A stretch of DNA of 64,000 nucleotides from Nakamurella panacisegetis (GTDB lineage Bacteria; Actinomycetota; Actinomycetes; Mycobacteriales; Nakamurellaceae). The stretch is taken from NCBI RefSeq assembly GCF_900104535.1, contig NZ_LT629710.1, positions 3,755,501 through 3,819,500 on the forward strand, given 5' to 3'. A model generated the notes under the pieces. That model did not search any database. It had not been told where the DNA came from and worked only from the letters and a program-made list of their open reading frames with translations. Positions 32,531 through 49,518 of the stretch are shown in pieces (positions within the stretch are counted from its first letter, which is position 1; every line of letters begins with the position of its first letter). The position numbers and the translations under genes are program-made.

Positions 32531-32568
32531 GAAGTTCCTTCTGTGCGGTAAGACAACGGGTAGGGGCC

Positions 32569-34086
32569 TCAATCGGCGAGGAGCAGACGCCCGTCGACGC
32601 GTCTGGGCAGCTGGCCGCCGGTGGGCCGGTCCCTCAGCTCATCGGGCAACAGCGCGTCCGGAACGTCCTGAAAGCTGATGGGGCGTAACCACCTTCTGAT
32701 CGAGGTGGCTCCCACGCTGGTGTGCAACGGATTGGTGGTGGCCGGGTAGGGACCGCCGTGGTGCATGGCCCAGGAGACCGCCACCCCGGTCGGGTAGCCG
32801 TTCCACACCACTCGGCCCACTGAGTCCTGGAGCATCCGCAGGATCCGCGCGGCGACCGGCCGGTCAGCGTCATCGGCGTGCACCGTGCCGGTCAGGGCCG
32901 GGCCGAAACGCGCCAGAAGGGCCAGGAGGTCATCGTCCGATCCGTACTCGACCAGCACCAGGACGGGGCCGAAACACTCATCCAGGACCGGACCGTCGAG
33001 CCCTCGTGCGTCAGCGCGCAGCAGGAGTGGGGTGCCCCACCAGCCGCGTTCCTTGCCGCCGCCCCCCTCGGCCAGAACCTGAACTCCAGGGTGTTCCCGC
33101 AATGCCACCGACCCGCCAGCGAACGCATTCCGCGTCCGCTCGCTGAGCATGACACCGGCCGGCAGCTGTTCGACCGCCCCCACCAGGGCGTCGCGCAGAG
33201 CGTCCCCATCGGACGACGCGGGGATCAGCGCCACGCCCGGCTTGGTGCAGAACTGGCCCACTCCGAGGGTGAACGAAGCGGCGAGCCCCTGGCCGATCGA
33301 CTCACCGCGAGACCGGGCCGCCTCGCGGCACACCATCACCGGGTTGAGTGCGCCGAGTTCGCCGTAGAACGGGATCGGGGTGGGTCGCGCGCCCGCGACG
33401 TCGAACAGTTCGCGGCCCACGCTCAGCGAACCGGTGAAACCAACGGCTCGAATCGACGGGTGTCGCACGAGGTCGCCGGCCGCCCGCCGGCCATAGATCA
33501 CCGACACGACGTCCGATTCCACCCCCGCCGCGCGTGCGCCTTCGGCCAGCGCCTCCTGGGAACGCACAGACGTCAACGGGTGCGCGTCATGCACTTTGGC
33601 CACCACCGGACATCCGGCGGCCAGAGCCGAGGCCGTGTCGCCACCGGGAACCGAGAAGGCAAAGGGAAAATTGCTCGCACCGAAAACCGCGACGGGCCCG
33701 AGCGGGGTGAGCATGCGTCGCAGATCTGGACGCGGCCCCATGGGTGTGTCACCTGCGTGGTCGATGGTCGCTTCGAGATACCCGCCGTCCTCGAGTACGT
33801 CGGCGAAAAGGTCCAGCTGCCAACGAGTACGAGTCAGTTCACCGCCAAGCCGGACCGGTCCCAGTCCGGTTTCCCGGTCCGCAATGGCGACCAGATCGTC
33901 GCGGTGCCGCTCCAACGAGCGGCCCATGGACCGCAGCATTTCGGCCCGGCCCGACCTACTCAGTTCGGCCAACTCCCGGGTGGCTGCGGCCGCGGCCGCG
34001 GTGATCCGCTCCAGGTCGGCGGAAGTGGTCTCGGCATCCAGCTCAGCGGCGGTCTGGCCGGTTCGCGGGTCCACGCTGGGAATCAT
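32569..34086 (-). CDS. 2,5-dioxovalerate (alpha-ketoglutarate semialdehyde) dehydrogenase
   Basis: A 505-aa aldehyde dehydrogenase. The catalytic residues are E243 in FYGELGALNP and C280 in GVGQFCTKPG; the cofactor region is VFGASNFPFAFSVPGGDTAS and the ending SWAMHHGGPYPATTNPL. These features match the KGSADH group, which converts 2-oxoglutarate semialdehyde to 2-oxoglutarate as the last Weimberg step. The cysteine-containing GQFCTKPG and HHGGPYPAT motifs separate it from general ALDHs. The ATG overlaps the stop of the FAH-family gene (ATGA), so the two last steps of the pathway are coupled. Confidence 0.9.
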   Translation of the reverse strand: MIPSVDPRTGQTAAELDAETTSADLERITAAAAAATRELAELSRSGRAEMLRSMGRSLERHRDDLVAIADRETGLGPVRLGGELTRTRWQLDLFADVLEDGGYLEATIDHAGDTPMGPRPDLRRMLTPLGPVAVFGASNFPFAFSVPGGDTASALAAGCPVVAKVHDAHPLTSVRSQEALAEGARAAGVESDVVSVIYGRRAAGDLVRHPSIRAVGFTGSLSVGRELFDVAGARPTPIPFYGELGALNPVMVCREAARSRGESIGQGLAASFTLGVGQFCTKPGVALIPASSDGDALRDALVGAVEQLPAGVMLSERTRNAFAGGSVALREHPGVQVLAEGGGGKERGWWGTPLLLRADARGLDGPVLDECFGPVLVLVEYGSDDDLLALLARFGPALTGTVHADDADRPVAARILRMLQDSVGRVVWNGYPTGVAVSWAMHHGGPYPATTNPLHTSVGATSIRRWLRPISFQDVPDALLPDELRDRPTGGQLPRRVDGRLLLAD

Positions 34087-34955
34087 GACGCCTCCGCACC
34101 GACGAATCCGCGGACCACCGGGTTGGTGAGCGAACCGACCCCGGGGATCTCGATGGTGACGACATCTCCGTGCTGCAGTGAGAACGGTGCCGCCGGGACC
34201 AGGCAGGTCCCCGTGGAGAGCACCGCGCCGTCCGGGTGAACATCACCGCGGAACAGGTAGCCGACCAGGTCGTCGATGCGCCGGTGCAGTGCCGACGTGT
34301 TCGCCTCCCCGGTCCAGGTCGTCACACCGTCCCGCTGAATGTCCAGGTGAATGGAAAGTCGGTACGGGTCAGGCACTTCCCACCAGGGTGTCACCCAGGG
34401 GCCGAGGCCGCACGCTCCGGAAAACACCTTGGCCTGCGGGAGGTAGAGCGGGTTCTCCCCTTCGATACTTCGCGAAGACACGTCGTTGCAGATGGTCCAG
34501 CCGACGATCTCGCCGTACCGGTTGACCACTGCCGCCAGTTCCGGCTCCGGCACGTCGAGCGTTGAATCGACTCGCACCCCGATCGGGGCGCCCGGTCCGG
34601 ACGCACGCCAGGCCACCGATTTGAAGAACAGCTCCGGCCGCTCGGCGTCGTAGACCAGCGCGTAGACGTCGGCCGCCCGGTCGCTCTCCTCGATCCGGGC
34701 CGCCCGCGACGTTTCGTAGGTGACTCCGCACGCCCACACCTCGGTGCGGCCGTCGACCGGTGCCAGCAGCGCGACATCGTCGATCGCCACGCCGTCGATG
34801 CCCGGTGACGAGGTCAGCCGTTCCCGTAGCTCGGTCGCCGTCAGCTGCCACAGGTGGGCGAGCGACGGAGCGTCCCGGATCGGCCGGATCAGCCCATCAG
34901 AGAGCACGCCGACCTCCGGCGCGGCGTCCGGGCGTCGGAACCGAACGATGTTCAC
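34083..34955 (-). CDS. 2-keto-3-deoxy-pentonate dehydratase-like, FAH superfamily (XylX-like)
   Basis: A 290-aa fumarylacetoacetate-hydrolase-fold enzyme. The run EPELAAVVNRYGEIVGWTI and SSRSIEGENPLYLPQAKVF resembles Caulobacter XylX, which converts 2-keto-3-deoxyxylonate to 2-oxoglutarate semialdehyde. Metal-binding acids are expected in the PEPEL segment. The GTG at 34955 is chosen: GGAGG lies 5 nt upstream, and the upstream in-frame sequence runs back into the neighbouring gene. A 2,4-diketo-3-deoxyfuconate hydrolase role is the main alternative; the adjacent KGSADH favours dehydratase. Confidence 0.85.
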   Translation of the reverse strand: MNIVRFRRPDAAPEVGVLSDGLIRPIRDAPSLAHLWQLTATELRERLTSSPGIDGVAIDDVALLAPVDGRTEVWACGVTYETSRAARIEESDRAADVYALVYDAERPELFFKSVAWRASGPGAPIGVRVDSTLDVPEPELAAVVNRYGEIVGWTICNDVSSRSIEGENPLYLPQAKVFSGACGLGPWVTPWWEVPDPYRLSIHLDIQRDGVTTWTGEANTSALHRRIDDLVGYLFRGDVHPDGAVLSTGTCLVPAAPFSLQHGDVVTIEIPGVGSLTNPVVRGFVGAEAS

Positions 34956-34992
34956 GGGGTCCTCCACGTTGTTGAGATCGTCGGGATGTTCG

Positions 34993-36150
34993 TCATCCGC
35001 TGAAGCCTTCAAGGGCGGCAGCACGGAGATGATCCATGTCGAACTCGATACCCAGACCAGGGCCATGGGGCAGTTCGAGTGAGCCGCCGGGGTTGCGTAG
35101 CGGGGTGGTGAGCAGCTCGTTGTAGACCGCCAGGTCGAAGCTGCTGGACTCGAGCCGGTAGAAGTTGGGGACCGTGGCCATGACGTGGGCACCGGCCACC
35201 AGATTGACCGGGCCAGCGGCATCGTGCGGTGAGATCGGGACGTAGTAAGCCTCGGCCAGGGTGGCGATCTTCTTCAGCTCGCTGATGCCGCCGGTCCAGG
35301 TGACGTCCGGCATGACGAAATCGGCCACGCCCGCCTGCAGAACGGGGACGAAGTCCCATCTTGTGTGCAGCCGCTCGCCGACCGCGATCGGCACCGTCAC
35401 CTGATCTCGCACCTGCTGCAGAGCGGCCAGGCTCTCCGGTGGCACCGGTTCCTCGAACCAGTGCAGATCAGCGGCCTCGTGCAGCGAACGGGCCAGACGG
35501 ATGGCGGTCGGTACATCGAACCGGGCATGGGCATCGACCAGCAGTTCGACGTCCGGGCCGGCCGCCTCACGGATTCTGGTCGCCGTCTCCACGGCCTGCC
35601 GCTCCAGATTCCGGGACAACGACCCGTCCAGATACCCGTCGTTGTCCGGTGACACACCCGGTGGATGGGGGAATGGATCGAACTTGATCGCGGTGTGCCC
35701 GGAGTCGGTAATCCGGCCGATCTCGTCGGCCAGACCCCCCGGGGTGGCAAAGCGGCTCTGATCGGGATGTGTGTACAGGAGTAGGCGGTCACGGACGCGC
35801 CCGCCGAGCAGATCGTGAATCGGCAGGCCAAGGGCCTTGCCCCGGATGTCCCACAAGGCAATGTCGATGGCACTGGTCAGGTGGGTTGCCGCGCCGCGGC
35901 TGCCCAGGTACGTGAAGGCTCGGAACAATCGATGCCAGGTCTGCTCGATCCGCCCCGGGTCGGAGCCGACGAGCAGGTCCTGGACTTCGCGCACCATGCG
36001 GGCCACGGTTCGGTTGGCCACCCTCGTCGTGGTGGTGACCTCACCCCATCCGCTCAGGCCCTCGTCGGTGCGGACCTCGACGAACAGGAACTCGCCCCAG
36101 TACGACACCGGCGACCGGATCAGCCAGGGCACCACTTCACGGATCCTCAT
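34993..36150 (-). CDS. Enolase-superfamily sugar-acid dehydratase (galactonate/arabinonate dehydratase-like)
   Basis: A 385-aa member of the mandelate racemase family with a complete active site: K in TAIKFDPFPH, D in LLVDAHARFD, E in LHWFEEPVPPE, E in IAVGERLHT, and H in PISPHDAAGPVN. GER and SPHxxxGP are typical of gluconate/galactonate/arabinonate dehydratases. It would make a 2-keto-3-deoxy acid for the XylX-like enzyme next door. The ATG at 36150 overlaps the stop of the RraA-like gene (ATGA). Two different enolase-type dehydratases in one operon suggest two sugar-acid substrates. Confidence 0.88.
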   Translation of the reverse strand: MRIREVVPWLIRSPVSYWGEFLFVEVRTDEGLSGWGEVTTTTRVANRTVARMVREVQDLLVGSDPGRIEQTWHRLFRAFTYLGSRGAATHLTSAIDIALWDIRGKALGLPIHDLLGGRVRDRLLLYTHPDQSRFATPGGLADEIGRITDSGHTAIKFDPFPHPPGVSPDNDGYLDGSLSRNLERQAVETATRIREAAGPDVELLVDAHARFDVPTAIRLARSLHEAADLHWFEEPVPPESLAALQQVRDQVTVPIAVGERLHTRWDFVPVLQAGVADFVMPDVTWTGGISELKKIATLAEAYYVPISPHDAAGPVNLVAGAHVMATVPNFYRLESSSFDLAVYNELLTTPLRNPGGSLELPHGPGLGIEFDMDHLRAAALEGFSG

Positions 36151-36980
36151 GACGCGCCGGCCCCGCCGCCCACGGCCGAGCCCTGTTGCTCCGCTCCGCT
36201 CGGCACTGGGGCGGGCCGGTTCCCGTCGTCCGGCGCGCGGTCGTCGTGCTCCCGCGTCCGGCGCCACTGGTCGTATTCGGGGCGCGCTCCATCGGTCAGC
36301 GGGTAGTAGCGACGCAGGTCACCCCCCTCCGACAGTCGCATCCGGGAAAAGTCCTCCCATTCGGCGTGCACGCTCGCTGCGGCCAGCAGTTGCGGAGCCA
36401 GTGCGATCGGGACCACCACCGCCCCGTCGTCATCGGCGATGATGATGTCACCGGGGACGACAACGGTGTTCCCGCAGGCGATCGGGACGTTCACCGCGGT
36501 GGGGAAAATGTCGGTCTGCGAGTGGAAGTTGGGCGTCACACCTTTGAGCCACAATCCCAGTCCGAGGTCCTTCACGCGCCCGAAGTCACGGATGCATCCG
36601 TCGATGACCACTCCCGCCCCGCCGAGTCCGCTGAAGTAGGTCAGCATCATCTCGCCGAACACCCCGCTGGTCATGCTGCCGCGTGCGTCGACCACCACGA
36701 CATCTCCCGGCTGGGCGTGATACAGGACGTGCCGATGCAGCTGCTTCTCCGGCTCCGCGTACTCGTCGACCTCATACAGGTCCTCACGCTTGGGCATGAA
36801 CTGCAGGGTCAGGGCCGGCCCGGCGATACTGACGCCCGGGCTGTGCGAGAACGGGCCGACGATGTGGGAGCTGCGGATTCCTAGGCGGTTGAGTTCTCCG
36901 CTTGCGGTAGCGCTGCCTATCTCGGCCAGTGCGGCGACCAGGGCGGGATCGGGACGAACGATGCCGGGCGTTTCCATCAT
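36147..36980 (-). CDS. RraA-like / HMG-type aldolase family protein
   Basis: A 277-aa protein of the RraA-like fold (also 4-hydroxy-4-methyl-2-oxoglutarate aldolases). Recognisable parts are IGSATASGELNRLGI, GDVVVVDARGSMTSGVFGEM and the R-D containing GGAGVVIDGCIRDFG; the latter fits the metal/pyruvate site of the aldolase members. The first gene of the catabolic operon, it could cleave a keto-acid to pyruvate. The C-terminal about 40 residues are a hydrophilic extension beyond the family. ATG at 36980 (or 36977) is used. Confidence 0.78.
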   Translation of the reverse strand: MMETPGIVRPDPALVAALAEIGSATASGELNRLGIRSSHIVGPFSHSPGVSIAGPALTLQFMPKREDLYEVDEYAEPEKQLHRHVLYHAQPGDVVVVDARGSMTSGVFGEMMLTYFSGLGGAGVVIDGCIRDFGRVKDLGLGLWLKGVTPNFHSQTDIFPTAVNVPIACGNTVVVPGDIIIADDDGAVVVPIALAPQLLAAASVHAEWEDFSRMRLSEGGDLRRYYPLTDGARPEYDQWRRTREHDDRAPDDGNRPAPVPSGAEQQGSAVGGGAGAS

Positions 36981-37057
36981 GAGATCTCTCTTCTTCGCCT
37001 CGAACGGCCGCCGGCCGCCGGGACCACGCTGTCCACCGGCGACCGAATGGCCCACCG

Positions 37058-37075
37058 AGTTTCGAATTAGTTTCG
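37058..37075. promoter_or_regulatory. Tandem AGTTTCG motif, candidate LacI operator
   Basis: AGTTTCG occurs twice (37058-37064 and 37069-37075), 11 bp apart; on the minus strand this reads CGAAACT twice. It is 78 bp upstream of the first gene of the sugar operon. The same hexamer pair is found at 37319-37336 and 44188-44205. Confidence 0.5.
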
Positions 37076-37291
37076 TAGACTGGCCCGTCTGCGATGCCAA
37101 GTTTCGACCAGCCTCTGCCAGGTGACTCTAGCGCGGCTATCGGTCCAGTGCATCGGGAATCCGAGTCGGACTATACCTCTCGATGAGCCTGACGCCAGTG
37201 GCGGAGACCAAGAAGTTGATGCCGCGGCCGCGCGGTCCGTGCCGGGCGACCATCGATCCGGAACTTCTTCGTGGCCCGATCTTGACGTAGC

Positions 37292-37336
37292 GTTTCGATG
37301 GTCGTAACGTCCCGGAAGCGAAACAATCTCCGAAAC
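37292..37336. promoter_or_regulatory. GTTTCG and tandem CGAAAC motifs, candidate LacI operators
   Basis: GTTTCG is at 37292-37297, and CGAAAC at 37319-37324 and 37331-37336, the last two 12 bp apart. The block lies 79 bp upstream of the transporter binding-protein gene. Spacing of one helical turn matches the pair next to lacI. Confidence 0.5.
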
Positions 37337-37414
37337 ATTCAGCGCTTGGTTCGTGGCATCACCACTCTCACCGCCCGTTGTCGTGCGTTCCTACAAGAAA
37401 GTGGCTTGATCGAG

Positions 37415-39019
37415 ATGACTCATCAGTTCCGGAATATCGCCGGTGTCGCCGCGTTCGCGCTGGTGCTGGCCGCCTGTGGCGGCACCAGCAGCAGCAGTAC
37501 GAACAGTTCGGCGCCCGCCGGTGGCCTGGCCAGCGGCGGCACTTTCACGCTGGCGCTCGGGTCGGACCCGGGCACCGTCAATCCCTACAAGAGCACCGGC
37601 GGTCTCAACCGTCAGGTCTACGCGTTCGCCTACGACACGCTCGTCGGTCGGGGTGCGGACGGCAAGCCGGTTCCGCAACTGGCGAGTTCGTGGACCACGA
37701 CGGGTACCTCGGTCACCTACGCCATCAAGACCGGGGTGACGTGCAGCGACGGCACGACTCTGAAACCGAGTGACATCGCCGCCGACTTCAACTACATCAA
37801 GGACCCGGCAACTCTTTCACCGTGGGTCGCGCTGTCCCTGCCGGTCAAGTACTCGGCCGCCGCGGACGACACCAAGAACACGGTCACGATCACCACCCAG
37901 ACCGCGTTCGGAGCGCTGGTGCAGGGCGCCGGTGCCATTCCCATCGTCTGTCCCGCGGGGCTGAAGAACGTGGCCGGCCTGGATCACGCCTCCAATGGCA
38001 CGGGGCCGTACAAGATCACCGACTACGTCTCCGGCGACCACTACACAATGCAGGTTCGGTCCGGTTACACATGGGGCCCGGCCGGAGCCGCCACCTCCGC
38101 CGCAGGCACACCGTCGACCGTGAAGATCGCATTCGTGGCCAACGAGTCCACCATGGCCAACCAACTGATATCCGGTCAGATCAACGCGGCCCAGATCACC
38201 GGGCCGGATCGCGCGCGGCTGGACAGCCAGACCGGGATCAAGCGATTCGACATCCCGGTCATCGTGGGCGAGGTCAACTACAACGAAGCGTCCGGCCGGA
38301 TCACGAGTGATACCGGAGTGCGGGTGGCTGTCACCCAGGCGCTGAATCTGAGCGACCTGGTGCCGGTCAGTACGGCGAACAAGGGCACGGCGGCCACGAA
38401 TCTGATCTCGGAGGCGCCGGTCGCCTGCCCTGGTGACGAGACCACCGGCGCACTGCCCGGTTTCGACCTCGCGAAGGCACAGCAGGCGCTGGATGCGGCC
38501 GGCTGGACCAAGGGTGGTGACGGAATCCGACAGAAAGCGGGCAAGTCTCTGACGCTGAAGGTCATCTACCAGACCGGCGCGCCGCAGACCGCCTCGGCCG
38601 TTGAGCTCATCGGCCAGCAGCTCAAGGCGGCCGGGATCGGCACGAACCTGGTCGGCTTGACCAACGCGGCGTTCCTGGACAGTCTGTACACGACCGCTGA
38701 TTTCGACATCTACTACAGCGCGATCAATGTCGAATTCCCGTACATGGCAACCACCTTCTTCGGCGGCGCCACGCCGGCCAAGGGCGGCCGCAACGCCGGT
38801 GCCATCGCCAACACCGAGTTCGAGCAACTGTCGGCGAAGGCCGCTGCGGCGCCGGCCGACCAGGCCTGTGCGATCTGGAGCCAGGCGCACAAGTCGTTGT
38901 TCAAGAGGGCGGATGTCGTTCCGATCTCGAGCGGTGATCGGCCGATCTACGCATCGAAAGCGACCCTGAGCACGGTCGGGCTGTTCGCCGTACCGACCAG
39001 TATCCGTCTGTACCAGTAA
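37415..39019 (+). CDS. ABC transporter substrate-binding lipoprotein (SBP family 5)
   Basis: A 534-aa lipoprotein with signal sequence FRNIAGVAAFALVLAACGG; the lipobox is LAAC. The mature part shows SBP_bac_5 features: LGSDPGTVNPYKS, TYAIKTGVTCSDGTTLKPSD, and GTGPYKITDY. Family-5 proteins bind peptides, but many actinobacterial and thermophile members bind oligosaccharides; divergence from a sugar catabolic operon under shared motifs favours a sugar ligand. The ATG at 37415 gives a normal signal peptide; the in-frame extension to 37298 would cross the operator-like motifs. Confidence 0.9.
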   Translation: MTHQFRNIAGVAAFALVLAACGGTSSSSTNSSAPAGGLASGGTFTLALGSDPGTVNPYKSTGGLNRQVYAFAYDTLVGRGADGKPVPQLASSWTTTGTSVTYAIKTGVTCSDGTTLKPSDIAADFNYIKDPATLSPWVALSLPVKYSAAADDTKNTVTITTQTAFGALVQGAGAIPIVCPAGLKNVAGLDHASNGTGPYKITDYVSGDHYTMQVRSGYTWGPAGAATSAAGTPSTVKIAFVANESTMANQLISGQINAAQITGPDRARLDSQTGIKRFDIPVIVGEVNYNEASGRITSDTGVRVAVTQALNLSDLVPVSTANKGTAATNLISEAPVACPGDETTGALPGFDLAKAQQALDAAGWTKGGDGIRQKAGKSLTLKVIYQTGAPQTASAVELIGQQLKAAGIGTNLVGLTNAAFLDSLYTTADFDIYYSAINVEFPYMATTFFGGATPAKGGRNAGAIANTEFEQLSAKAAAAPADQACAIWSQAHKSLFKRADVVPISSGDRPIYASKATLSTVGLFAVPTSIRLYQ

Positions 39020-39048
39020 CATTCGCGAGAAGCGCATCAGGAGAAGTG

Positions 39049-40083
39049 ATGAGCACAGAGATCGTGCTGACGCCGGACGGCGGTGCCGGATCACCGGTGC
39101 CGCCGGGCTCGGCGGTCAGGAGGAGAGCTCGGCCGCTGAACCGGTGGGCCATCTTCCTCGGGCGCCGCGTCATCCGGCTGGCGGTCTCATTGCTGGTGTT
39201 GATCACGGCGACGTTCCTGATGATCCACCTGATACCGGGGGATCCGGTCCAGGCGGCGCTCGGCGATCAGGCGACGCCGGCGCTCGTCGCACTCCGCCGT
39301 CACGACCTGGGGCTGGACCGGCCGCTGCTGAGCCAGTACCTGCACTACCTCGGAGGCGTTCTGACCGGCCACCTGGGCAATTCGATCGTCAGCGATTCCT
39401 CCGTCGCCCAGATCCTGGGCGAACGGTTCCCGAACACACTGAAACTCGCGGTCCCCGCCTTCCTGATCGTCATCCTGCTGTCCATGCCGATCGGTCTGTT
39501 GACCGCGGTGCGGACCCGCGGTGGTCGGGGTCGCACGACTCGCGCCCTGTTCGTCAACATCACCGGACTGCTGAACTCGATCCCTGACTATGTCCTGGCC
39601 ACGGTACTGAGCGTGCTGTTCGTGGTCACGATGAAGATCTTCCCGGCCTCGGGTGACGTCGGTGCGAGTTCCTACGTCCTTCCGGTGATCGCGCTGGTCG
39701 TGGGTCCGGCTGCGTCCCTCTCCCGCATCGTCCGCGTCGAAGCGCTCAAGGTGCTGGACACCGAGTACGTCCGGGCCGCGAAGTCACGGCGACTGCCGAC
39801 CGCGTTGCGGTACTTCCGGCACGTGCTCCCGAACATGATGACGGCCTCGCTGACCTTCGGCACGCTCATCCTGTCCGGGCTGATCGCCGGAACCGTGCTC
39901 GTCGAGAATGTCTTCGCCTGGCCGGGCGTCGGTACCGTGATCGCACAAGCAGTGGTGCAGAAGGACTTTCCGTTGGTGCAGGGTGTGCTTCTCGTCCTCG
40001 GAGGGACCGTCCTGGTGCTCAACACCGTGGTCGACCTCTTGCTCGGCGTCCTCGATCCGCGATCCCGAGTGGGGGAGATGTAG
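39049..40083 (+). CDS. ABC transporter permease (DppB/OppB type)
   Basis: A 344-aa membrane protein with six predicted TM segments, including FLGRRVIRLAVSLLVLITAT at the N-terminus, LLVLITATFLMIHLIPGDPV, and the coupling region EYVRAAKSRRLPTALRYFRH, which contains the EAA-type motif. AGGAGA at 39039-39044 fits the ATG at 39049 better than the overlapping GTG at 39046. It is 29 bp after the binding-protein gene and immediately followed by the permease-ATPase fusion. Confidence 0.9.
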   Translation: MSTEIVLTPDGGAGSPVPPGSAVRRRARPLNRWAIFLGRRVIRLAVSLLVLITATFLMIHLIPGDPVQAALGDQATPALVALRRHDLGLDRPLLSQYLHYLGGVLTGHLGNSIVSDSSVAQILGERFPNTLKLAVPAFLIVILLSMPIGLLTAVRTRGGRGRTTRALFVNITGLLNSIPDYVLATVLSVLFVVTMKIFPASGDVGASSYVLPVIALVVGPAASLSRIVRVEALKVLDTEYVRAAKSRRLPTALRYFRHVLPNMMTASLTFGTLILSGLIAGTVLVENVFAWPGVGTVIAQAVVQKDFPLVQGVLLVLGGTVLVLNTVVDLLLGVLDPRSRVGEM

Positions 40084-42009
40084 ATGTCGACCATTCCTGG
40101 GCGCAACCGTCGCCGGCCCCGACTTCCGGGCGGCGCGTCGGCAATCCTGCTGCTGACCTTCATCTTTCTCTGCATCGCCGCGCCGTTGATCTGGGGACGG
40201 GCGGCGGAATCCACGATGGTGGTCGACGCCAACCAGTCGATGAGCGGCCGTCACCTGCTCGGAACCGACGACCTGGGCCGAGATCTGCTCGCTCGAACAC
40301 TGGTCGCCACCCGCAGTTCCTTGGTGCTGGCCGTGCTGGCCACCCTGGTGGGTGGGGTGATCGGGATCGCTCTGGGACTGCTCTCCGGTGTCTCCAGGCG
40401 GTTGGGGCGGGTGATCGGCGCGGTCATCAATCTGCTGATCGCCTTTCCGGCGCTGCTCCTGGCGATCTTCTTCGCCGTTCTCTTCGGTATCGGTTCGGTG
40501 GGCAGTGTGCTGGCCGTCGGTGCGGCTTTCGCTCCCGGATTCGCCCGCATCACCCAGACCCTGACGGCGTCCGCGGTCAGCCGTGACTACGTCGACGCGT
40601 CGAGAGTGCTCGGTCGCGGGCCGTTCTTCGTCGTGCGCCGCCACATCCTTCCCAATATCGCAGAGCCGGTGATCCTGTACTCCACCATTCACATCGGTAC
40701 GGCCATCCTGTCGCTGTCCGGCCTCAGCTTCCTCGGGCTCGGAGTGCAGCCCCCGGCCTATGACTGGGGCCGGTTGCTCAGCGACGGGCTCACCAGGGTG
40801 TACATCTCCCCGGGCGCGGCGCTCGGCCCAGCCGTCGCCATCGTCTTGGCCGGGCTGGCGTTCAACATGGTGGGCGAGCGCCTGGCCGATTCCATCGGTG
40901 GGCGCAAAGCCGTGTCCCGCCGACGGACCCAGGCCGCGCTCGCTGCCGTTCCCACCCCCGAGCCGGATGCGATCTCGACGTCCGGCGGAGACGCACTTCT
41001 GGAGGTTCGGCACCTGCAGGTGCTCTACACCGCGGCCGACGGCACGGTCACCACTCCGGTGCGCGACGTGTCGTTCTCGGCCGCCGCGGGGGAGACGGTC
41101 GGTATCGTCGGTGAGTCCGGATCGGGCAAGAGCGTTGCGACGTCGGCGATCGCGCAGCTGGTCGAAGCCCCTGGCTCGGTGCGGGCGCAGACATTGCGGT
41201 TCGGCGACGTCGACCTGCTGCGACCGACCAGGCAGACCGACGGCGAACTCGGCCGGACGATGTCGGTCGTGTTCCAGGACCCGGGCGAGGCGCTCAACCC
41301 GGCCCTGAAGATTGGAACCCATTTGATCGAACCCGCAGTGACCCACCTGCACGAACCCAAGCCCTCCGCCCGGCGTCGAGCCCTGGAGGCCCTGGCCGGG
41401 GTGGCGATCTCCGACCCAGAACGCAGGTATCGGCAGCATCAACACGAACTGTCCGGCGGCATGAAGCAGAGGGTGTGCATTGCCATCTCTCTGATGGGCG
41501 AACCCAAGCTGCTCATCGCCGACGAGCCCACGACCGCCCTGGACGTCACGGTCCAGCGGCAGATACTCCGGTTGATCGCCCAGGTGGGCGATCGGACGGG
41601 CGCCAGCATTCTGTTCATCTCCCACGACATCGCCGTCGTCTCGGAGATCTGTGACCGCATTCTGGTCATGTATGCAGGTTTCGTCGTAGAGGAGGCGCCA
41701 ACGGCCCAGCTGCTCGCCGCGCCGGCGCATCCCTACACGCAACTATTGCTGGCCGCCAGCCCGACCATGACCGCGCGCAAGGATCTTCCGCTCACGTCCC
41801 TGGAAGGCCGGATGCCCGGCCCCGGGGTTGACCTCCCCGGATGCTACTTCGCAGATCGGTGCCCGCGGGCCGACGCCACCTGCGTCAGTACCCGCCCTCC
41901 GCTGGCCGAGGTCGGTGTCGGCCACCGAGCGTCCTGTTGGCACCCCCTGACCGGCTCCGTCCAGGGATCGCGCCAGGCCGAAGCGGCCGACGCGGTGGGT
42001 GCCGCATGA
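40084..42009 (+). CDS. Fused ABC permease (DppC type) and ATPase (DppD type)
   Basis: One 641-aa reading frame carries two normally separate subunits. Residues about 1-280 are a DppC-type permease (HLLGTDDLGRDLLARTLVATR; the EAA region DYVDASRVLGRGPFFVVRRH; FLGLGVQPPAYDWG). Residues about 300-640 are an ATPase with Walker A GESGSGKS, the Q-loop VFQDPGEALNP, signature LSGGMKQR and Walker [10 protein letters not shown], ending in the oligopeptide-type C-terminal segment with CYFADRCP. The linker around 280-300 is Ala/Pro rich. The ATG overlap at 42006 couples it to the second ATPase. Confidence 0.92.
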   Translation: MSTIPGRNRRRPRLPGGASAILLLTFIFLCIAAPLIWGRAAESTMVVDANQSMSGRHLLGTDDLGRDLLARTLVATRSSLVLAVLATLVGGVIGIALGLLSGVSRRLGRVIGAVINLLIAFPALLLAIFFAVLFGIGSVGSVLAVGAAFAPGFARITQTLTASAVSRDYVDASRVLGRGPFFVVRRHILPNIAEPVILYSTIHIGTAILSLSGLSFLGLGVQPPAYDWGRLLSDGLTRVYISPGAALGPAVAIVLAGLAFNMVGERLADSIGGRKAVSRRRTQAALAAVPTPEPDAISTSGGDALLEVRHLQVLYTAADGTVTTPVRDVSFSAAAGETVGIVGESGSGKSVATSAIAQLVEAPGSVRAQTLRFGDVDLLRPTRQTDGELGRTMSVVFQDPGEALNPALKIGTHLIEPAVTHLHEPKPSARRRALEALAGVAISDPERRYRQHQHELSGGMKQRVCIAISLMGEPKLLIADEPTTALDVTVQRQILRLIAQVGDRTGASILFISHDIAVVSEICDRILVMYAGFVVEEAPTAQLLAAPAHPYTQLLLAASPTMTARKDLPLTSLEGRMPGPGVDLPGCYFADRCPRADATCVSTRPPLAEVGVGHRASCWHPLTGSVQGSRQAEAADAVGAA

Positions 42010-42977
42010 ACACGGCACTGAGTGTTCGGGATCTCGGCGTTCGCTACGGTTCGGTCGTCGCACTGCACGACGTGTCCTTCGACCTGGCCCCCGGTCGCGT
42101 CCTGGGCCTGGTCGGGGAATCAGGCTCGGGAAAGAGCACGACCGCGCGCGCCGTGGTCGGGCTGGCGCCGCACACCGGGCGCATCACGATCGGCGATACG
42201 GACCTGTCTGTCGTGTCGGCGCGTGCGGCGCGGCAGGCCCGCCGACGCGTGCAACTGGTCTTCCAGGATCCGCGCAGCTCACTCGACCCGCGGTTCACCG
42301 TGGCCGAATGTGTCGCCGAGGGTTTGGGCGCCGGCCGCGGCCGGGACACCTCCCGAAGGGTCGAGGAGCTGCTCGAACTGGTCTCGCTGGATCCGGATCT
42401 CGGCCGCTCGCGGCCGGGTCAGCTGTCCGGGGGGCAGCGGCAGCGCGTCGCCATTGCGCGTGCCCTCGCCGCCGAACCCGAGGTGCTGGTGGCCGACGAG
42501 GTCACGGCGTCGCTGGATGTCTCGGTCCAGGCCGTGGTGTTGAACCTGTTGCGGCGTCTGCAATCGGAACTGGGGCTGTCCATGTTGTTCATCAGCCACA
42601 ACTTGGCGGTGGTGCGCTACATGTGCGACGACGTCGCGGTCATGTTCGACGGGCACATCGTCGAAGAGGGGACCGTGGAAGACGTCATCTCGCGGCCGCA
42701 GCACCCCTATACCCGTTCTCTCCTTGCGGCAGTGCCTGAAGTCGGCCAACATCGGTTGCTGTCGGATTCGGCGATCGAGGCCAGCTCTGCTTCTGCCCCG
42801 GCGCCCGGTCCTGGGTGTGAGTACCGGCTGCGTTGCCCGGTCGGCCCGCTGCGCCGCGACGACCGCGCCGTCTGCAACACCGAGAACCCGTTACCGGAGG
42901 CCATCAATCGCGTTCACCACGCCAGCTGCCACTTTGCTCCGGCGCGGTCGACGGAGAGCCCTGTGGTCGTCGGATGA
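42006..42977 (+). CDS. ABC transporter ATPase (DppF/OppF type)
   Basis: A 323-aa ATPase: Walker [12 protein letters not shown]-loop VFQDPRSSLDP, signature LSGGQRQRVAIARAL, Walker B VLVADEVTASLD (E-V-T in place of the usual E-P-T/V), H-loop FISHNLAVV. The C-terminus has an oligopeptide-type cysteine region (CEYRLRCPVGP). The ATG at 42006 overlaps the stop of the permease-ATPase fusion. Last gene of the transporter operon, convergent with lacI. Confidence 0.92.
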   Translation: MNTALSVRDLGVRYGSVVALHDVSFDLAPGRVLGLVGESGSGKSTTARAVVGLAPHTGRITIGDTDLSVVSARAARQARRRVQLVFQDPRSSLDPRFTVAECVAEGLGAGRGRDTSRRVEELLELVSLDPDLGRSRPGQLSGGQRQRVAIARALAAEPEVLVADEVTASLDVSVQAVVLNLLRRLQSELGLSMLFISHNLAVVRYMCDDVAVMFDGHIVEEGTVEDVISRPQHPYTRSLLAAVPEVGQHRLLSDSAIEASSASAPAPGPGCEYRLRCPVGPLRRDDRAVCNTENPLPEAINRVHHASCHFAPARSTESPVVVG

Positions 42978-43036
42978 CCGACGGGCCCATCGGCCACCCG
43001 ACCACGGCACCGTTCTCGGTGAACTCGCCCGGTGAC

Positions 43037-44119
43037 TCAGGGCCTCTTGGCCGTCCGGCGAGGCCGTGGCGGTGCCGTGCTCGACCGGACGACGAGCGTG
43101 GTGGGCAGCTCCGTGCGGGCCCTGGTCGGCGCCGTGGGCGCGTTGTGTGCGGTCTGCAGCAGCGCGCCGGTGGCCAACTCGGCCAGTTCCCGGATCGGTT
43201 GGCGGATCGTCGTGAGCGGCGGGAGTACCCACTGCGACATGGGGACGTCGTCGAAGCCCACGACACTGAGGTCTTCCGGGACCCGCAAGCCCTGACGCTG
43301 GACGGCGGTGTAGACGCCCAGCGCCTGCTCGTCGTTCGCCGCGAAAATGGCCGTGGGCGGGTCGGCCAGCTGCAGCAGTTCCGTCGCTCCCCGCACAGCG
43401 GACTCGAAGTGGAAGTCGCCCGGTCGGATGAGCGCTGGATCGGATTCGATGCCCGCCCGCTCCAGGGTGGCCCGGTAGCCGGCCAGACGCTCCTGGCTGC
43501 ACAAGTAGCGCATCGGGCCGGTGACGGTGCCAATGCGGCGATGACCCAGGTCGAGGAGATGCTGCGTCGCGGTGGCCGCGCCACCCCAGTTGAACACGCC
43601 GAAGGAGAGGAGGTCGGAGTCGAAGTCACCGACCGGGTCGACCGAAACGAACGGAACGCCAAGCTGGCTCACGCGGCCGCGGTCGGCCGCGGAGAGACTC
43701 GCCACCAGAATGACGCCCTGAGAGCCCCGATCGGTCACGTCCTGCACCCACTGTCGCCGGTCCTCATTACCCGGGCCGAGCACGGACACGACGACCGAGA
43801 CACGCGCCGCGCGTGCAGCCGATTGGACGCCGCTGATCATCTCCGCCGCCCATGGCGATCCGGCGTCGTTGAAGACGATGTCGATGAGGCCACCACCGGG
43901 CGGACGACGCGGGGCCGGCTCGTTGCCGGTCTTGGTGCGGGGAGTGCGAACGTACTGGTGCTGCTCGAGCAGCGCCTGCACCAGGGCTCGGGTCTTGCGG
44001 GACACGTCGGGACGGTCGTTGAGCACCTTCGAGACGGTGGCCACCGAGACTCCTGCGGCCGCCGCGATGTCGGCCACTGTGACTTTGCGGTCCTCAGACT
44101 CCGTGACGAGTACGGTCAC
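43037..44119 (-). CDS. LacI-family transcriptional regulator
   Basis: A 360-aa repressor. The N-terminal helix-turn-helix is KVTVADIAAAAGVSVATVSKVLNDRPDVS (residues about 12-40; recognised by VTVADIAAAAGVSVATVSKV), followed by a periplasmic-binding-like sugar domain ending FDDVPMSQWVLPPLTTIRQP. It starts with GTG at 44119 with GGGAGG 4 nt upstream. It is convergent with the transporter operon and divergent from the epimerase gene. Tandem CGAAAC repeats are found in its own promoter and in the sugar/transporter divergon, so it probably autoregulates and controls both. Confidence 0.92.
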   Translation of the reverse strand: MTVLVTESEDRKVTVADIAAAAGVSVATVSKVLNDRPDVSRKTRALVQALLEQHQYVRTPRTKTGNEPAPRRPPGGGLIDIVFNDAGSPWAAEMISGVQSAARAARVSVVVSVLGPGNEDRRQWVQDVTDRGSQGVILVASLSAADRGRVSQLGVPFVSVDPVGDFDSDLLSFGVFNWGGAATATQHLLDLGHRRIGTVTGPMRYLCSQERLAGYRATLERAGIESDPALIRPGDFHFESAVRGATELLQLADPPTAIFAANDEQALGVYTAVQRQGLRVPEDLSVVGFDDVPMSQWVLPPLTTIRQPIRELAELATGALLQTAHNAPTAPTRARTELPTTLVVRSSTAPPRPRRTAKRP

Positions 44120-44187
44120 CGGTCCTCCCGTTCGTACGCTCGCCGGACACAGCCGGGTCGATTCCAGGTGACGCTCCAGGTCATTTC

Positions 44188-44205
44188 CGAAACTTCCTCC
44201 GAAAC
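44188..44205. promoter_or_regulatory. Tandem CGAAAC motif upstream of lacI, candidate operator
   Basis: CGAAAC is at 44188-44193 and again at 44200-44205 (period 12); the repeat extends to TCCGAAACTT in both copies. It sits 69 bp upstream of the lacI start and 88 bp upstream of the divergent epimerase gene. The same pairs flank the sugar/transporter divergon. Confidence 0.5.
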
Positions 44206-44292: not shown

Positions 44293-45321
44293 GTGAGCCG
44301 CACCAGCAGGCGAGTGCTGTACGTAGGTGGGACCGGGACGATCAGCGCTGCTTGTGTTGTGGCCTCTCTGGGCCGCGGCGACGAGGTGCACGTCCTGAAT
44401 CGGGGTGCGTCCACGCTCAGGCCGCCGCCCCCCGGAGTGCATCAGCACCACGCCGACATCCGCGGGGACGACGTGGGCCAGGCTCTGGCCGGTCTGCACT
44501 TCGATGCGGTGGTGGATTTCCTCTGCTACACAGCCGCAGACGCGCAACGGGCCGAGAGCATCTTCGCCGAGCGCACCGACCAGTACATCTTCATCAGCAG
44601 CGCCACGGTGTACCGCAAACCCGTCGCGCGCTTCCCGACCACAGAGTCGACTGCGTTGCGCAACCCGCTCCTGGCATATGCCAGGGGGAAACTGGGAGCC
44701 GAACAAGCTTTGATGGTCGCCTTCCGCGAGCGGGAGTTCCCGGTCACCGTGGTGCGGCCGTCCCACACCTACGACGATGCCAGGCCGCCCTTCCCAGGCG
44801 ACTGGACGGTGGTCGACCGGATCCTGCGAGGATCCGAAGTCGTGGTCTCGGGTGATGGTACGTCGCCCTGGACCATCACCCATGCCGACGATTTCGCGGT
44901 CGGGCTGATCGGGTTGATCGGCCTGACCGCCTCGATCGGCGAGGCATTCCACATCACCTCCGACGAGGTGCTGACCTGGGATGCTATTCACGGCATCCTC
45001 GCTGCGGCCGCCGACGTCGCGCCGCGCTTGCTCCATCTGTCCGCAGACCTGATCGCGACGGCGGCCCCGGACTGGCGCTGGTCGGAACTGATCCGGGGTG
45101 ATCTCAGCCACTCGAGCATCTTCGACACCACGAAGATCCGATCATTCGTACCGGCGTTCCGTCCGCAGGTGACCTGGGAGGAGGGTGCTCGCCGAATCCT
45201 CCAGTGGCGGGCGGCCCACCCCGACCGATCGGGACCCGATCCCACCACCGACTCGATCCTGGACCGCCTCGTCGAGGGTTATCACAAGAGCCTCACCGTC
45301 CTGCGACAGTTGGCTCCGTGA
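44293..45321 (+). CDS. NAD-dependent epimerase/dehydratase (extended SDR)
   Basis: A 342-aa extended SDR: the nucleotide-binding motif is VLYVGGTGTISAACV, followed by EVHVLNRGAS, DAVVDFLCYT and an active site S...Y-x3-K (FISSATVYRK; YARGKLGAEQ). It resembles the NAD-dependent epimerase group containing isoflavone-reductase/mRNA-binding-like proteins, and could modify a sugar or nucleotide sugar. Starts with GTG at 44293 with AGCGAGGA upstream. It overlaps the next gene by GTGA (45318) and is divergent from lacI. Confidence 0.82.
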   Translation: MSRTSRRVLYVGGTGTISAACVVASLGRGDEVHVLNRGASTLRPPPPGVHQHHADIRGDDVGQALAGLHFDAVVDFLCYTAADAQRAESIFAERTDQYIFISSATVYRKPVARFPTTESTALRNPLLAYARGKLGAEQALMVAFREREFPVTVVRPSHTYDDARPPFPGDWTVVDRILRGSEVVVSGDGTSPWTITHADDFAVGLIGLIGLTASIGEAFHITSDEVLTWDAIHGILAAAADVAPRLLHLSADLIATAAPDWRWSELIRGDLSHSSIFDTTKIRSFVPAFRPQVTWEEGARRILQWRAAHPDRSGPDPTTDSILDRLVEGYHKSLTVLRQLAP

Positions 45322-46414: not shown

Positions 46415-47413
46415 TCAGCCCGGCTCGACCAGGTCCGTCTGGTCGCGCCACCAGGGCGTCTCCACAAATCCCCGCTTGAGGAAGAGCAACTCCATCGACG
46501 CGCTCCAGCCGAGCACACCGTCCAGCTTGGCCAGCACCGTGGTGATGAACTCGAACAGTGATTGGGTCGAGGTGGCGATGACCTCACACAGCAGGGCGTT
46601 GCCGTCCAGCGTGGCGGCGAGATAGCGCACGGCCCGGTGCCGGGCGAGCTCCGCGGCCACCAGGCCGATGGCTCCCGGCTTCACCTGGACCGTCATGAGG
46701 GTCTCCGATTCCAGACCGAGAGCGGCCGCCGGTATCAGGGTCAGCACCGTCACGCAGCCGTTCTCCTGCAATCGATCGAATCGGCGGCGCACGGTGGATT
46801 CGTTCAGCCCGAGTCTCTCGGCGATCACCTTGAACCCGGCCCGGCCGTCGTCCCGAAGCTCCGCGATGATCTGGCGGTCCGTGCTGTCGAGGTGGCTCGG
46901 CTGGCAGTCGGCCGGCTCTCGAGGGGGCACGTCGTTGCCCTGGTCGCCGAGCAGCTGCTTGCTCCAGTCGTGGGCCACCTTGTACACATGCAGCAGCAGA
47001 TCCGAATGCCAGCGCTGCACTCCGTCGATCGTCTGCATCTCTTTGATCATCCGCGGATAGCTGCTCGCGCCCTTGGGCACCACCAGTTCGAAGACCAGGT
47101 CGTCCGGTCCGGTGACGACGGCCAGGAACCGCACCTCCTCCCGCTGGACCAGGGCCGCGGCGACGTCGAGTTGCGAACCCGGTCGGCAGCCGAGCCGAAC
47201 GATGAACGACTCGACCGGCCCGGAACTGCCGAGCTCCGGCATGACCGATATCCGCACCACGCCTTCGTCGATGAGTTGCTGGGCTCGCCTGGCCACGGTG
47301 GGCACGGAGGACTGGCACACCTCGGCGATCGAGGTCCAACTTGCGCGGCCGTCCTGCTGGAGCGCCACGATGATGCGGCGATCCAGTTCGTCCAACGTTG
47401 GCCATGCTCGCAT
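46415..47413 (-). CDS. Double Lrp/AsnC-family transcriptional regulator
   Basis: A 332-aa protein containing two Lrp units in tandem. The first helix-turn-helix is in LDELDRRIIVALQQDGRASW...VPTVARRAQQLIDEG, and the second in LDSTDRQIIAELRDDGRAGF...LNESTVRRRFDRLQENG; each is followed by a RAM-type effector segment. Such fused regulators are known in actinobacteria and often sense amino acids. The ATG at 47413 shares a base with the preceding stop (TGATG). Its position at the end of a peptide-use operon suggests control by amino acids. Confidence 0.88.
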   Translation of the reverse strand: MRAWPTLDELDRRIIVALQQDGRASWTSIAEVCQSSVPTVARRAQQLIDEGVVRISVMPELGSSGPVESFIVRLGCRPGSQLDVAAALVQREEVRFLAVVTGPDDLVFELVVPKGASSYPRMIKEMQTIDGVQRWHSDLLLHVYKVAHDWSKQLLGDQGNDVPPREPADCQPSHLDSTDRQIIAELRDDGRAGFKVIAERLGLNESTVRRRFDRLQENGCVTVLTLIPAAALGLESETLMTVQVKPGAIGLVAAELARHRAVRYLAATLDGNALLCEVIATSTQSLFEFITTVLAKLDGVLGWSASMELLFLKRGFVETPWWRDQTDLVEPG

Positions 47414-48273
47414 CAACGAACGTCCGCCGGGGCTCGGCCTTGGTCGACCCGGGTCAGGAACTCCCGCACCGCGGCGGTCCACTCCTCAGCTTGCTCCACC
47501 TGTGGAGAATGCCCCGACTCCTCGAAAATGACCAACTCCGAGCCCGGGATCAGGGCATGGATGGTCTCGCTGCAGCTGACTGGTGTGATCCAGTCGGTGC
47601 GGCCGACGGTGATCAGGGTCGGGCAACTGATCGATGGGAGCAGGTGCTTGATGTCGTAGTTCGGGATGTTGTGGGCAAAGGCGAAGTTGTGGGTGGCATA
47701 CCGGTAGGGGGTCGCCGCCACCTTGGCCTCCACGTTCGCCGGATCGTAGTTGAAATCGTAGAGCGGCAAGATTTCCCGCCAGCAGTCACGCAGGTCTTCG
47801 TCATCGCGCACCAGACCGGCGTTGATCCGGTCCAGCTTTGCCACGTCCACCTCGATCCGGGCGGAGGCCAGGGCATTCGTCCTGGAGAGCTTCTCGTGCG
47901 CGTGATCGGCCGCGGTGTCGCGGAGCACCAGGGCCCGCACCCGATCGGGATAGCGGGTGGCGTACTCCAGCGAGATGAACCCGCCGTAGGAGCCGCCGGC
48001 CATGATCACCTGATCGACCCCGATCCACTCCCGCAGCCCGTCGACGTCGGCGGCCCACTGCTCGTGGGTGAACGGCCCCTCGCCCCCGCTCTGGCCCGAT
48101 CCGCGGGCGTCGAACACCACCACCCGGTAGGTGTCGGCCAACCGACCGAAGCTGGCGCGTGGCTCCGACCGAGAGCCAAGGCCAGGCGCACCGTGATGGG
48201 CGATCAACACGGGTGCACGTTCTGGTCCCATCACCTCGACGGCCAGCGGGTTGCCGTTGATCTCTACGAACAT
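47413..48273 (-). CDS. Alpha/beta hydrolase, proline iminopeptidase-like
   Basis: A 286-aa alpha/beta hydrolase. Oxyanion region HHGAPGLGS, FDARGSGQSGG, the nucleophile elbow AGGSYGGFISLEYA (serine in GGSYGG), and late acid/base segments TLITVGRTDWITP and EESGHSPQVEQ. The FDARGSGQS and GGSYGG motifs place it near proline iminopeptidases, which release N-terminal proline. Ribosome-binding site GGAGAG lies before the ATG at 48273. It sits with a dipeptidase and an M24 homologue, consistent with peptide or amide hydrolysis. Confidence 0.85.
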   Translation of the reverse strand: MFVEINGNPLAVEVMGPERAPVLIAHHGAPGLGSRSEPRASFGRLADTYRVVVFDARGSGQSGGEGPFTHEQWAADVDGLREWIGVDQVIMAGGSYGGFISLEYATRYPDRVRALVLRDTAADHAHEKLSRTNALASARIEVDVAKLDRINAGLVRDDEDLRDCWREILPLYDFNYDPANVEAKVAATPYRYATHNFAFAHNIPNYDIKHLLPSISCPTLITVGRTDWITPVSCSETIHALIPGSELVIFEESGHSPQVEQAEEWTAAVREFLTRVDQGRAPADVR

Positions 48274-48314: not shown

Positions 48315-49505
48315 TCAGACCGCGATGACGGCGTGTGCGAGGTCCCGGGGGAACGAGGTCAACGGACGGGCTCCCTCGGCCGTCACCAGCATGGAGTCGG
48401 AGATCCGGTAACCGGCATGACCCGGGATGTAGATGCCGGGTTCGTTGGAGACGATCATTCCCTCGGCGAGCAGGGTGGGATCGCCGTCCTCGAGCCACGG
48501 CGGCTCGTGCATGCCCAACCCGATGCCGTGGCCCTGCCGGTGTCGCAAGAACCCGCCGAACCCGGCATCCCGGATGACCTGCAGGCACACCCGGTTGACC
48601 TCTGCGCACGCCACTCCGGGGCGGATGGCGTGACCGCCGATCTCCTGGGCCGCTCGCACCGCCTCGTAGTAACGAACCTGCTCGGACGTCGGCTCGCCGA
48701 GGAGGAAGGTTCGCTCGCCCTCGACGAAACGACCACCAACGGCGCAGCCCAGCGAGAGCATGAAGGTGTCGCCGGCCCGCAGCCGGTAGCCGGACGGCAG
48801 GCCGTGCGGGTAGGCCGAGTTGGCTCCGGCGTAGACCAATCCACCGGCCAGCGGGCTGACCACCACCACGTCGTCGTGCTCGGCGTACATGGTGCGCACC
48901 CCGGTGGACGTGACGTGAGCGGCCAGCTCGGCCTCAGTGGGCAACGCGGCGCCCGCGGCCACCGCGTCGGCAACGAGGGCGACCCCGGCGGACAGCATCT
49001 GATCGGTGATCCGGGCGGCCTCGGCATGCAGCGCGATCTCCTCGGGATGCTTGCCGAACCTGGCCCGGACGACCAGCTCGGTCGGCTGGAACTGCCACTG
49101 CGGCAACTGTTCCCGGACCGCGGCGAGCCGCTGGAACGACGTGGACACGGCGTGGCCGACGATGCCGGACGGGCCCACCGCCGCGGCCAGCGCGGCGAAC
49201 GGAGGCACAACCCCGGGATACTCGGCGTAGGAGACGATCTCGGCCCTGGCGTGCTGGGATTCGGCGTGCTCGCGCTCGAGTTCGGGCAGCAGGAGCACAC
49301 AGGCGCCGTCCACCGGCACCCAGACCGCCACCGGGCGCTCACAAGGATGGTGGAAGAAGCCGGTCAGGTATGCGACGTCCTCCGGGTCATCGCTGAACAA
49401 CGCCGCGAACCCCGCGGCCGCGGCGTCTTCCCGAACCAGTTGCTGGACGCGGTCGAAGAAGTCGGCGGACAGCCGCGGCGTGAAACGGGTTTCGGTACTC
49501 GTCAC
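48315..49505 (-). CDS. M24-family (Xaa-Pro peptidase/creatinase-like) hydrolase with altered metal site
   Basis: A 396-aa pita-bread-fold protein: an N-terminal creatinase-like domain (DDPEDVAYLTGFFHH) and a catalytic domain with RHRQGHGIGLGMHEPPW and SNEPGIYIPGHAGYRISDS. The metal-dependent family uses Asp, Asp, His, Glu, Glu. Here the first Asp position reads MLSLGCAVGG, the second FVEGERTF, and the last Glu is replaced in GYRISDSM; the His and first Glu remain. It could therefore be a metal-independent, creatinase-like amidohydrolase, or use an unusual site. It is 41 bp upstream of the alpha/beta hydrolase gene. Confidence 0.8.
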   Translation of the reverse strand: MTSTETRFTPRLSADFFDRVQQLVREDAAAAGFAALFSDDPEDVAYLTGFFHHPCERPVAVWVPVDGACVLLLPELEREHAESQHARAEIVSYAEYPGVVPPFAALAAAVGPSGIVGHAVSTSFQRLAAVREQLPQWQFQPTELVVRARFGKHPEEIALHAEAARITDQMLSAGVALVADAVAAGAALPTEAELAAHVTSTGVRTMYAEHDDVVVVSPLAGGLVYAGANSAYPHGLPSGYRLRAGDTFMLSLGCAVGGRFVEGERTFLLGEPTSEQVRYYEAVRAAQEIGGHAIRPGVACAEVNRVCLQVIRDAGFGGFLRHRQGHGIGLGMHEPPWLEDGDPTLLAEGMIVSNEPGIYIPGHAGYRISDSMLVTAEGARPLTSFPRDLAHAVIAV

Positions 49506-49518
49506 GTCGGACTTCCTT

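Follow-up and report, generated by a model that had tools for sequence, protein, structure and literature searches.

Tandem CGAAAC boxes as candidate direct-repeat operators of a LacI-family regulator in Nakamurella panacisegetis

Box pairs and genes of the locus

The 64,000-nucleotide stretch of the Nakamurella panacisegetis chromosome analyzed here (hereafter, the window) encodes a LacI-family regulator, a leftward operon probably for the catabolism of a sugar acid, an ATP-binding cassette (ABC) importer, and an epimerase/dehydratase. Two divergent promoter regions of this locus carry three tandem pairs of the hexamer CGAAAC, which, judging from the sequence, are probably operators of the LacI-family protein and would define a direct-repeat regulon. 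The regulator, the box pairs, and the associated promoter elements are as follows (SBP, solute-binding protein; HTH, helix-turn-helix).

43037-44119, minus strand: LacI-family regulator of 360 amino acids, with the HTH motif SVATVSK and a 21-residue linker
37059-37075, minus strand: candidate operator pair CGAAACTAATTCGAAAC, GTTTCG at 37059-37064 and 37070-37075 (period 11), 79-95 bp 5' of the start of the RraA-like gene (ATG 36980)
37319-37336, plus strand: candidate operator pair CGAAACAATCTCCGAAAC, CGAAAC at 37319-37324 and 37331-37336 (period 12), just 3' of where transcription of the transporter operon presumably starts
44188-44205, plus strand: candidate operator pair CGAAACTTCCTCCGAAAC, CGAAAC at 44188-44193 and 44200-44205 (period 12), between lacI (GTG 44119, minus strand) and the epimerase/dehydratase gene (44293, plus strand)
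37101-37106, minus strand: lone CGAAAC box in the RraA/SBP intergenic region
37292-37297, minus strand: lone CGAAAC box within the spacer of the presumed transporter promoter
37282-37310, plus strand: presumed transporter-operon promoter TTGACG-N17-TAACGT, a weak match whose layout recurs in the orthologous locus L261

The first-pass annotation of this DNA had reported tandem CGAAAC (or GTTTCG) pairs at three places, and all three are there, with the first starting at 37059 and not at 37058. It placed every pair beside a LacI gene, which is true of 44188-44205 alone. The two remaining pairs share the divergent RraA/SBP intergenic region (36981-37414) and are separated from lacI by ∼6 to 7 kb, across the transporter operon; the two lone boxes in the same intergenic region had been overlooked. 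Each pair lies ∼80 bp from a start codon (RraA-like ATG 36980, SBP ATG 37415, and LacI GTG 44119). The genes around the pairs are listed below.

36147-36980, minus strand: RraA-like protein, encoded at the head of the leftward catabolic operon
34993-36267, minus strand: enolase-superfamily sugar-acid dehydratase, closest in NCBIfam to galactonate dehydratase, below the cut-off
34083-35222, minus strand: FAA-hydrolase family protein (open reading frame [ORF] as listed; the real start is probably farther downstream)
32569-34086, minus strand: aldehyde dehydrogenase family protein
31562-32572, minus strand: aldo/keto reductase
30561-31613, minus strand: Gfo/Idh/MocA oxidoreductase
29783-30472, minus strand: KDPG/KHG aldolase
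26380-29988, minus strand: second enolase-superfamily gene, PfkB kinase, and Zn alcohol dehydrogenase, probably of the same operon
37415-39019, plus strand: ABC solute-binding lipoprotein (SBP), family 5
39046-42977, plus strand: ABC permease, permease-ATPase fusion, and ATPase of the oligopeptide/nickel type
44293-45321, plus strand: NAD-dependent epimerase/dehydratase, divergent from lacI

For both dehydratases, the best NCBIfam matches (galactonate dehydratase and others) remain under the cut-off. Farther out, the window encodes an Lrp/AsnC-like protein (46415-47482) that combines two HTH domains in a single chain and matches nothing in the ortholog loci retrieved, an M24 peptidase with two more oligopeptide-type ABC permease genes (48315-51569), and, near the 3' end of the leftward operon, a DNA/RNA non-specific endonuclease (PF01223; 23902-24735).

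Rarity of the pairs in the genome

Single CGAAAC boxes show no enrichment in the window (31 occurrences; expectation, 28.4), whereas the three pairs compare with none in 100 shuffles at each spacing, so the signal resides in the pairs. In the complete genome (G000; 5,013,870 bp), the exact pattern CGAAAC-N5/6-CGAAAC occurs three times, always within this 7.1-kb stretch; the chance of three random points falling within 7,147 bp is 6e-6. Relaxing the spacer to 4 to 8 bp adds a single N4 pair, at C1:1227846, for a total of four, and this pair is spanned by an open frame of 1,005 codons with coding-like G+C content at third codon positions. Pairs with one mismatch are scattered genome-wide (18 with N6 and 20 with N5), compared to 6 (N6) and 1 (N5) for the reversed-pattern controls, exact and one-mismatch matches taken together.

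Whether such pairs occur in genes or in promoters was examined in a genome scan that the first-pass annotation had called for. Of 39 points (the 38 one-mismatch pairs and the N4 pair), 21 lie in a clear coding frame when the two best frames are considered, and 16 when the best frame alone is; the three exact window pairs do not. The test is rough, as its threshold was chosen post hoc from the table and it recovered only 10 of 17 points known to be coding. The genome encodes two other LacI proteins of the same subfamily (C1:2141096 and C1:151189); the idea that the boxes are common to them was discarded, as neither has an exact CGAAAC pair with a 4- to 8-bp spacer.

Domains and linker of the LacI protein

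The regulator contains the domains typical of the LacI family, PF00356 (51.8 bits; cut-off, 27) and PF13377 (135.5 bits; cut-off, 26.5), and its structural model agrees with this assignment. What sets it apart is the linker between Y56 and L78, which has 21 residues, ∼6 more than in E. coli LacI; it has 17 to 24 residues in 16 orthologs (mostly of the form [VI]PTxRTKR) and 9 to 14 in 106 other members of the subfamily. In the AlphaFold2 model, residues 59 to 75 have a predicted local distance difference test score (pLDDT) below 50 and are predicted to be disordered; in the model of a short-linker relative (L123), the low-confidence stretch is limited to residues 55 to 61. The model of the window LacI, built without DNA, has no hinge helix, and inspection by eye found no A..L hinge sequence. 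Such helices may take shape only once the protein is bound to DNA. The genome contains 31 LacI HTH matches, one of them in the window. Of these, 30 were inspected for a hinge: 13 conform to the strict pattern, less strict forms are recognizable by eye in most of the rest that fall outside the subfamily, and no hinge was recognized in the window LacI or in its two subfamily paralogs.

Conservation in orthologous clusters

A scan of named genomes, in which 79 loci were kept from at least 598 candidates, revealed an orthologous cluster in Acrocarpospora corrugata (Streptosporangiaceae). LacI was detected at E ≤ 1e-98 in 19 of the 341 genomes of this family, and 16 of these proteins are 56 to 64% identical to the window LacI. 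In the A. corrugata cluster (L122, the same locus as L248), the identity is 60% for LacI, 76% for RraA, 74% for the dehydratase, 62% for the hydrolase, and 56% for the Gfo/Idh oxidoreductase; aldo/keto reductase, epimerase, and alcohol dehydrogenase genes are also present. Direct pairs of the CGAAATTCCYTCGAAAC type, with a period of 10 to 11 bp, are found at the RraA (or hydrolase) promoters beside LacI in L122, L260, L262, L263, and L264, and the RraA-side pair of L261 is CGAAACTTCTCCGAAAC. A second nearby pair is also direct, with a period of 8, 12, 13, or 21 bp. The gene order of L261 (RraA-SBP-permeases-LacI) matches that of the window, as do the orientations of its two pairs, of period 11 on the RraA side and of period 21 on the SBP side; its promoter reads TTGACG-N17-TAACTT, compared to TTGACG-N17-TAACGT in the window.

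Pair orientation was counted in the 16 clusters and the window over 300 bp on either side of LacI and, in L261 and the window, additionally over 300 bp 5' of RraA and SBP. CGAAA pairs within 25 bp of each other were direct in 18 cases and inverted in 2, with a pair seen twice in L261 counted once (binomial p of 0.0002 if the pairs are independent); the window contributed 3 direct pairs and no inverted ones. The direct periods are 8, 10 to 13, 17, 21, and 23 bp, and both inverted pairs, in L259 and L263, are 13 bp apart.

A degenerate form of the site, CGAAANTTCN(1-3)CGAAAC, matched 10 times in 12 genomes (111 Mb), once per genome, with none in G692 and G706 and none for the reversed control. 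Nine of the 10 matches lie within 10 kb of the gene for this LacI. One of the nine is the match in the window itself; of the others, seven are found at the epimerase end and one, in G646, is on the RraA side. The proposal of the first-pass annotation that the pairs mark a single regulon with direct-repeat boxes thus gains support from comparative genomics, through the predominance of direct pairs and through these nine matches.

Promoters of the LacI subfamily

Homologs of the window LacI at E ≤ 1e-60 were found in 43 of the 150 related genomes searched, the N. panacisegetis genome included. Five of the 109 LacI loci, in which no HTH could be parsed, were dropped, and the removal of near-identical upstream regions reduced the sets from 85 to 69 for the palindrome and repeat counts and from 104 to 85 for the comparison of residue types. 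The strongest signal in the 69 non-redundant promoters is the palindrome GAAA-N-TTTC (31 occurrences, 0.2 expected); direct GAAA repeats at 11, 10, 21, and 22 bp are enriched as well. The same phasing is seen in 35 promoters of R-type and 49 of K-type regulators relative to 1.41 Mb of surrounding sequence, the type being given by the residue that follows TVS in the HTH; the window LacI is of the K type, with CGAAAC boxes. The sequence TTCCGGAA is present in 19 of 35 R-type promoters and in 1 of 50 K-type promoters (Fisher p of 1.5e-8, indicative, the sequences being related). The contrast between the two types lies in TTCCGGAA and in pair orientation. Relatedness among the genomes means that neither the box pairs nor the promoters are independent samples, and all p values given here are indicative.

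Among the matches listed, exact CGAAAC pairs are found 150 to 300 bp 5' of subfamily lacI genes in G030, G115, G145, and G149, and a listed LacI homolog lies downstream of an exact pair only in these four genomes and in the window. The R-type lacI promoters (L006 to L027 and related loci) carry tandem TTTCCGGAA units with a period of 10 to 11 bp; one way to read the consensus of these units is as a palindrome of 20 bp that has a central CG and near-palindromic halves, so the direct and inverted readings coincide there. In five genomes of the family f15 (G030, G042, G059, G067, and G097), the pair CGAAACTTTTCCGAAAC occurs away from listed LacI homologs.

Proposed mechanism and the evidence against it

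The boxes, their rarity in the genome, their promoter position, their conservation in part of the orthologs, the orientation bias, and the linker length are observations; from them we infer a LacI-family binder, repression, a reversed DNA-binding head, and an inducer. The regulator would repress the sugar-acid catabolic operon (RraA, dehydratases, hydrolase, aldolase, and dehydrogenases), its ABC importer, and the divergently transcribed lacI and epimerase genes, and binding of a sugar acid of the pathway by its sensor domain would lift the repression. The operator in this LacI clade would be a direct repeat of the one-sided box YCGAAACT, mostly 10 to 13 bp or ∼21 bp apart, a spacing that aligns the boxes along the same side of the helix. 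With long disordered linkers and no hinge helix, a dimer might reverse one of its DNA-binding heads and thereby read both same-facing boxes, a behavior for which CytR offers a precedent. The positions of the boxes just 3' of the presumed SBP promoter and inside it fit repression through occlusion.

Several results weigh against this interpretation. Eight of the 16 ortholog clusters (L265 and, in the genus g163, L266, L267, and L269 to L273) have no box pair within 300 bp of the long-linker LacI, and the LacI promoters of the orthologs mostly carry single boxes and no pair. Beyond CGAAA, the units of a pair match at 6 to 10 of 11 positions, no better than the best repeats in shuffled sequence (mean, 6.6), and a consensus promoter scan lists no promoter above its threshold at either region. 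The model of the short-linker control L123 likewise lacks a hinge helix, so the difference is one of linker length and not of disorder. Subfamily members with Ala at the second position of the recognition helix, mostly with short linkers, also have 8 direct and 5 inverted pairs (12 upstream regions, with the window and L122 included). An attempt to tell K-type from R-type regulators by the mere occurrence of CGAAAC failed (17 of 35 R-type and 31 of 50 K-type promoters; p of 0.27). As to the degenerate site, seven of the nine cluster matches lie at the epimerase end, six of these have a second LacI gene within 1.5 kb, and the tenth match (L311; G701:C24:130563) is an off-cluster CGAAACTTCCCGAAAC pair between glgC-like and glycosyltransferase-like genes, as named from their translations. 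In four epimerase-side stretches, delimited manually from tblastn edges, direct and inverted pairs are equally numerous (6 each), and the direct pairs of g163 adjoin the second, short-linker LacI.

This second protein (LacI-B), 44 to 54% identical over the aligned parts, is encoded close to the cluster's epimerase end in L266, L267, L269 to L273, and L304 to L307, and it lies near the degenerate site in L304 to L309. In g163, LacI-B has a short linker and the motif SVPTVSK, with CGAAAGTTTCG-like boxes beside the gene in several loci. LacI-B may explain the mixture of direct and inverted pairs on the epimerase side, and its presence there means that the long-linker LacI is not the sole candidate binder of those sites.

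Alternative explanations

The pairs could be ordinary degenerate palindromes, with each CGAAAC supplying the strong half-site of a BxlR-like GAAA-N-TTTC pseudo-palindrome and each pair representing two overlapping sites one turn apart. The prominence of this palindrome in the 69 subfamily promoters, alongside phased direct repeats, speaks for such a reading, and so do the 44188 units GAAACTTCC and GAAACTTAC, one mismatch away from GAAACTTTC, the TTC kept after the first box at many ortholog sites (CGAAANTTC), and the overlapping LacI sites ∼13 bp apart that are on record in section 9 of PMC4052901. However, the best dyads in 23 chosen sites match at 5 to 7 of 11 positions, with a shuffled mean of 6.2, and neither of the 2 inverted pairs, set against 18 direct ones, has the 6- to 8-bp spacing of a BxlR palindrome. 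Direct pairs at 10 to 13 bp and convergent pairs at 6 to 8 bp stand at 11 to 0 here and at 6 to 17 in the K/P relatives (Fisher p of 9e-5, with related sequences). On balance, this explanation is unlikely. A canonical even LacI palindrome within the pairs was also considered and rejected, as the dyads are at the level of shuffled sequence.

Another regulator family that uses direct repeats 10 to 11 bp apart, such as DeoR, might bind the boxes instead. The motifs of the DeoR-family RhaR are described in an excerpt of PMC3870299 as imperfect direct repeats with a period of 10 to 11 bp, and the window does encode the double-HTH Lrp/AsnC-like protein. Against this, a search of the 16 ortholog loci (∼20 kb each) at E 1e-30 found no counterpart of the Lrp-like gene, the base preference tracks the residue in the HTH of LacI, and BxlR, itself of the LacI family, binds the same word. 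Ten further ORFs of L261 and L122 comprise six from non-regulator families and four without a Pfam match; an IclR- or DeoR-type binder was sought among the cluster ORFs tested and rejected, with the same four of 10 lacking a Pfam match. Involvement of such a regulator is thus quite improbable. A coincidence of three unrelated short matches would be in keeping with the expected frequency of CGAAAC itself and with the 0 to 11 such pairs per genome in the 150 genomes (among the matches listed), but it is hardly credible in view of the empty shuffles, the clustering within 7.1 kb (p of 6e-6), and the comparable pairs in another order.

Comparison with known LacI-family regulators

Among the known systems most like the window LacI is BxlR of Streptomyces, which binds CGAAACTTTCG according to passages of PMC4743123; targets of a BxlR homolog carry CGAANNTTTCG (PMC12772271, in part). 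Like BxlR as portrayed there, the window LacI is an actinobacterial LacI-family protein associated with sugar uptake and catabolism and with the CGAAA word. The BxlR sites, in contrast, are described in those portions as palindromic, whereas the pairs found here are mostly direct. The BxlR-type operator CGAAA-N-TTTCG was not found, with no convergent pair at 6 to 8 bp in the 16 clusters and the window. BxlR-type regulators control xylan or xylobiose genes; a scan of cluster proteins turned up none for xylan and instead dehydratases and an aldolase.

CytR of Escherichia coli accepts direct repeats, which the cytR and cdd operators conserve, as well as relaxed half-site spacing, according to parts of PMC3454398 and PMC5263246. 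CytR acts together with CRP; most of its sites are inverted, and 1 bp separates the units of its direct repeats. The window LacI is not a CytR ortholog, scoring 185 bits against the NCBIfam CytR model with a cut-off of 436. The behavior of CytR is reportedly due to a flexible interdomain linker, going by the title of a 1998 paper by Jorgensen. With LacI, PurR, and CcpA, the window LacI shares its domains, and it has sequence relatives with solved structures; it differs from them in having no clear palindrome, a linker ∼6 residues longer than that of LacI, and no predicted hinge helix. The usual palindromic operator thus appears, from sequence, to be missing at these sites, given the 18 direct and 2 inverted pairs and dyads no better than in shuffled sequence; this operator is a usual and not a defining trait of the family, from which CytR also departs.

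Even palindromes with a central CG were assigned to 1,173 of 1,303 described LacI-family factors in the portion of PMC4052901 that deals with motif reconstruction, in which tandem and overlapping sites peak at 13, 22, and 32 bp. As only palindromes of 14 to 24 bp were sought, to judge from that portion, a direct-repeat class would have escaped the reconstruction. The fold, the type of regulon, and the existence of direct repeats in the LacI family (in CytR) are already known; a search of one literature collection turned up no clade-wide direct-repeat operator accompanied by a lengthened linker.

Implications

The analysis allows a broader, tentative suggestion, slightly less likely than not: an actinobacterial clade of LacI proteins might have switched its operator from a palindrome to head-to-tail one-sided boxes with variable, helix-phased spacing, alongside a longer disordered linker and an altered recognition helix. 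If true, this would be a natural, regulon-wide change of operator symmetry inside the LacI family. It would provide a simple rule for finding such regulons and a natural series, from a short linker with a palindrome to a long linker with a direct repeat, for testing how interdomain linkers set operator symmetry.

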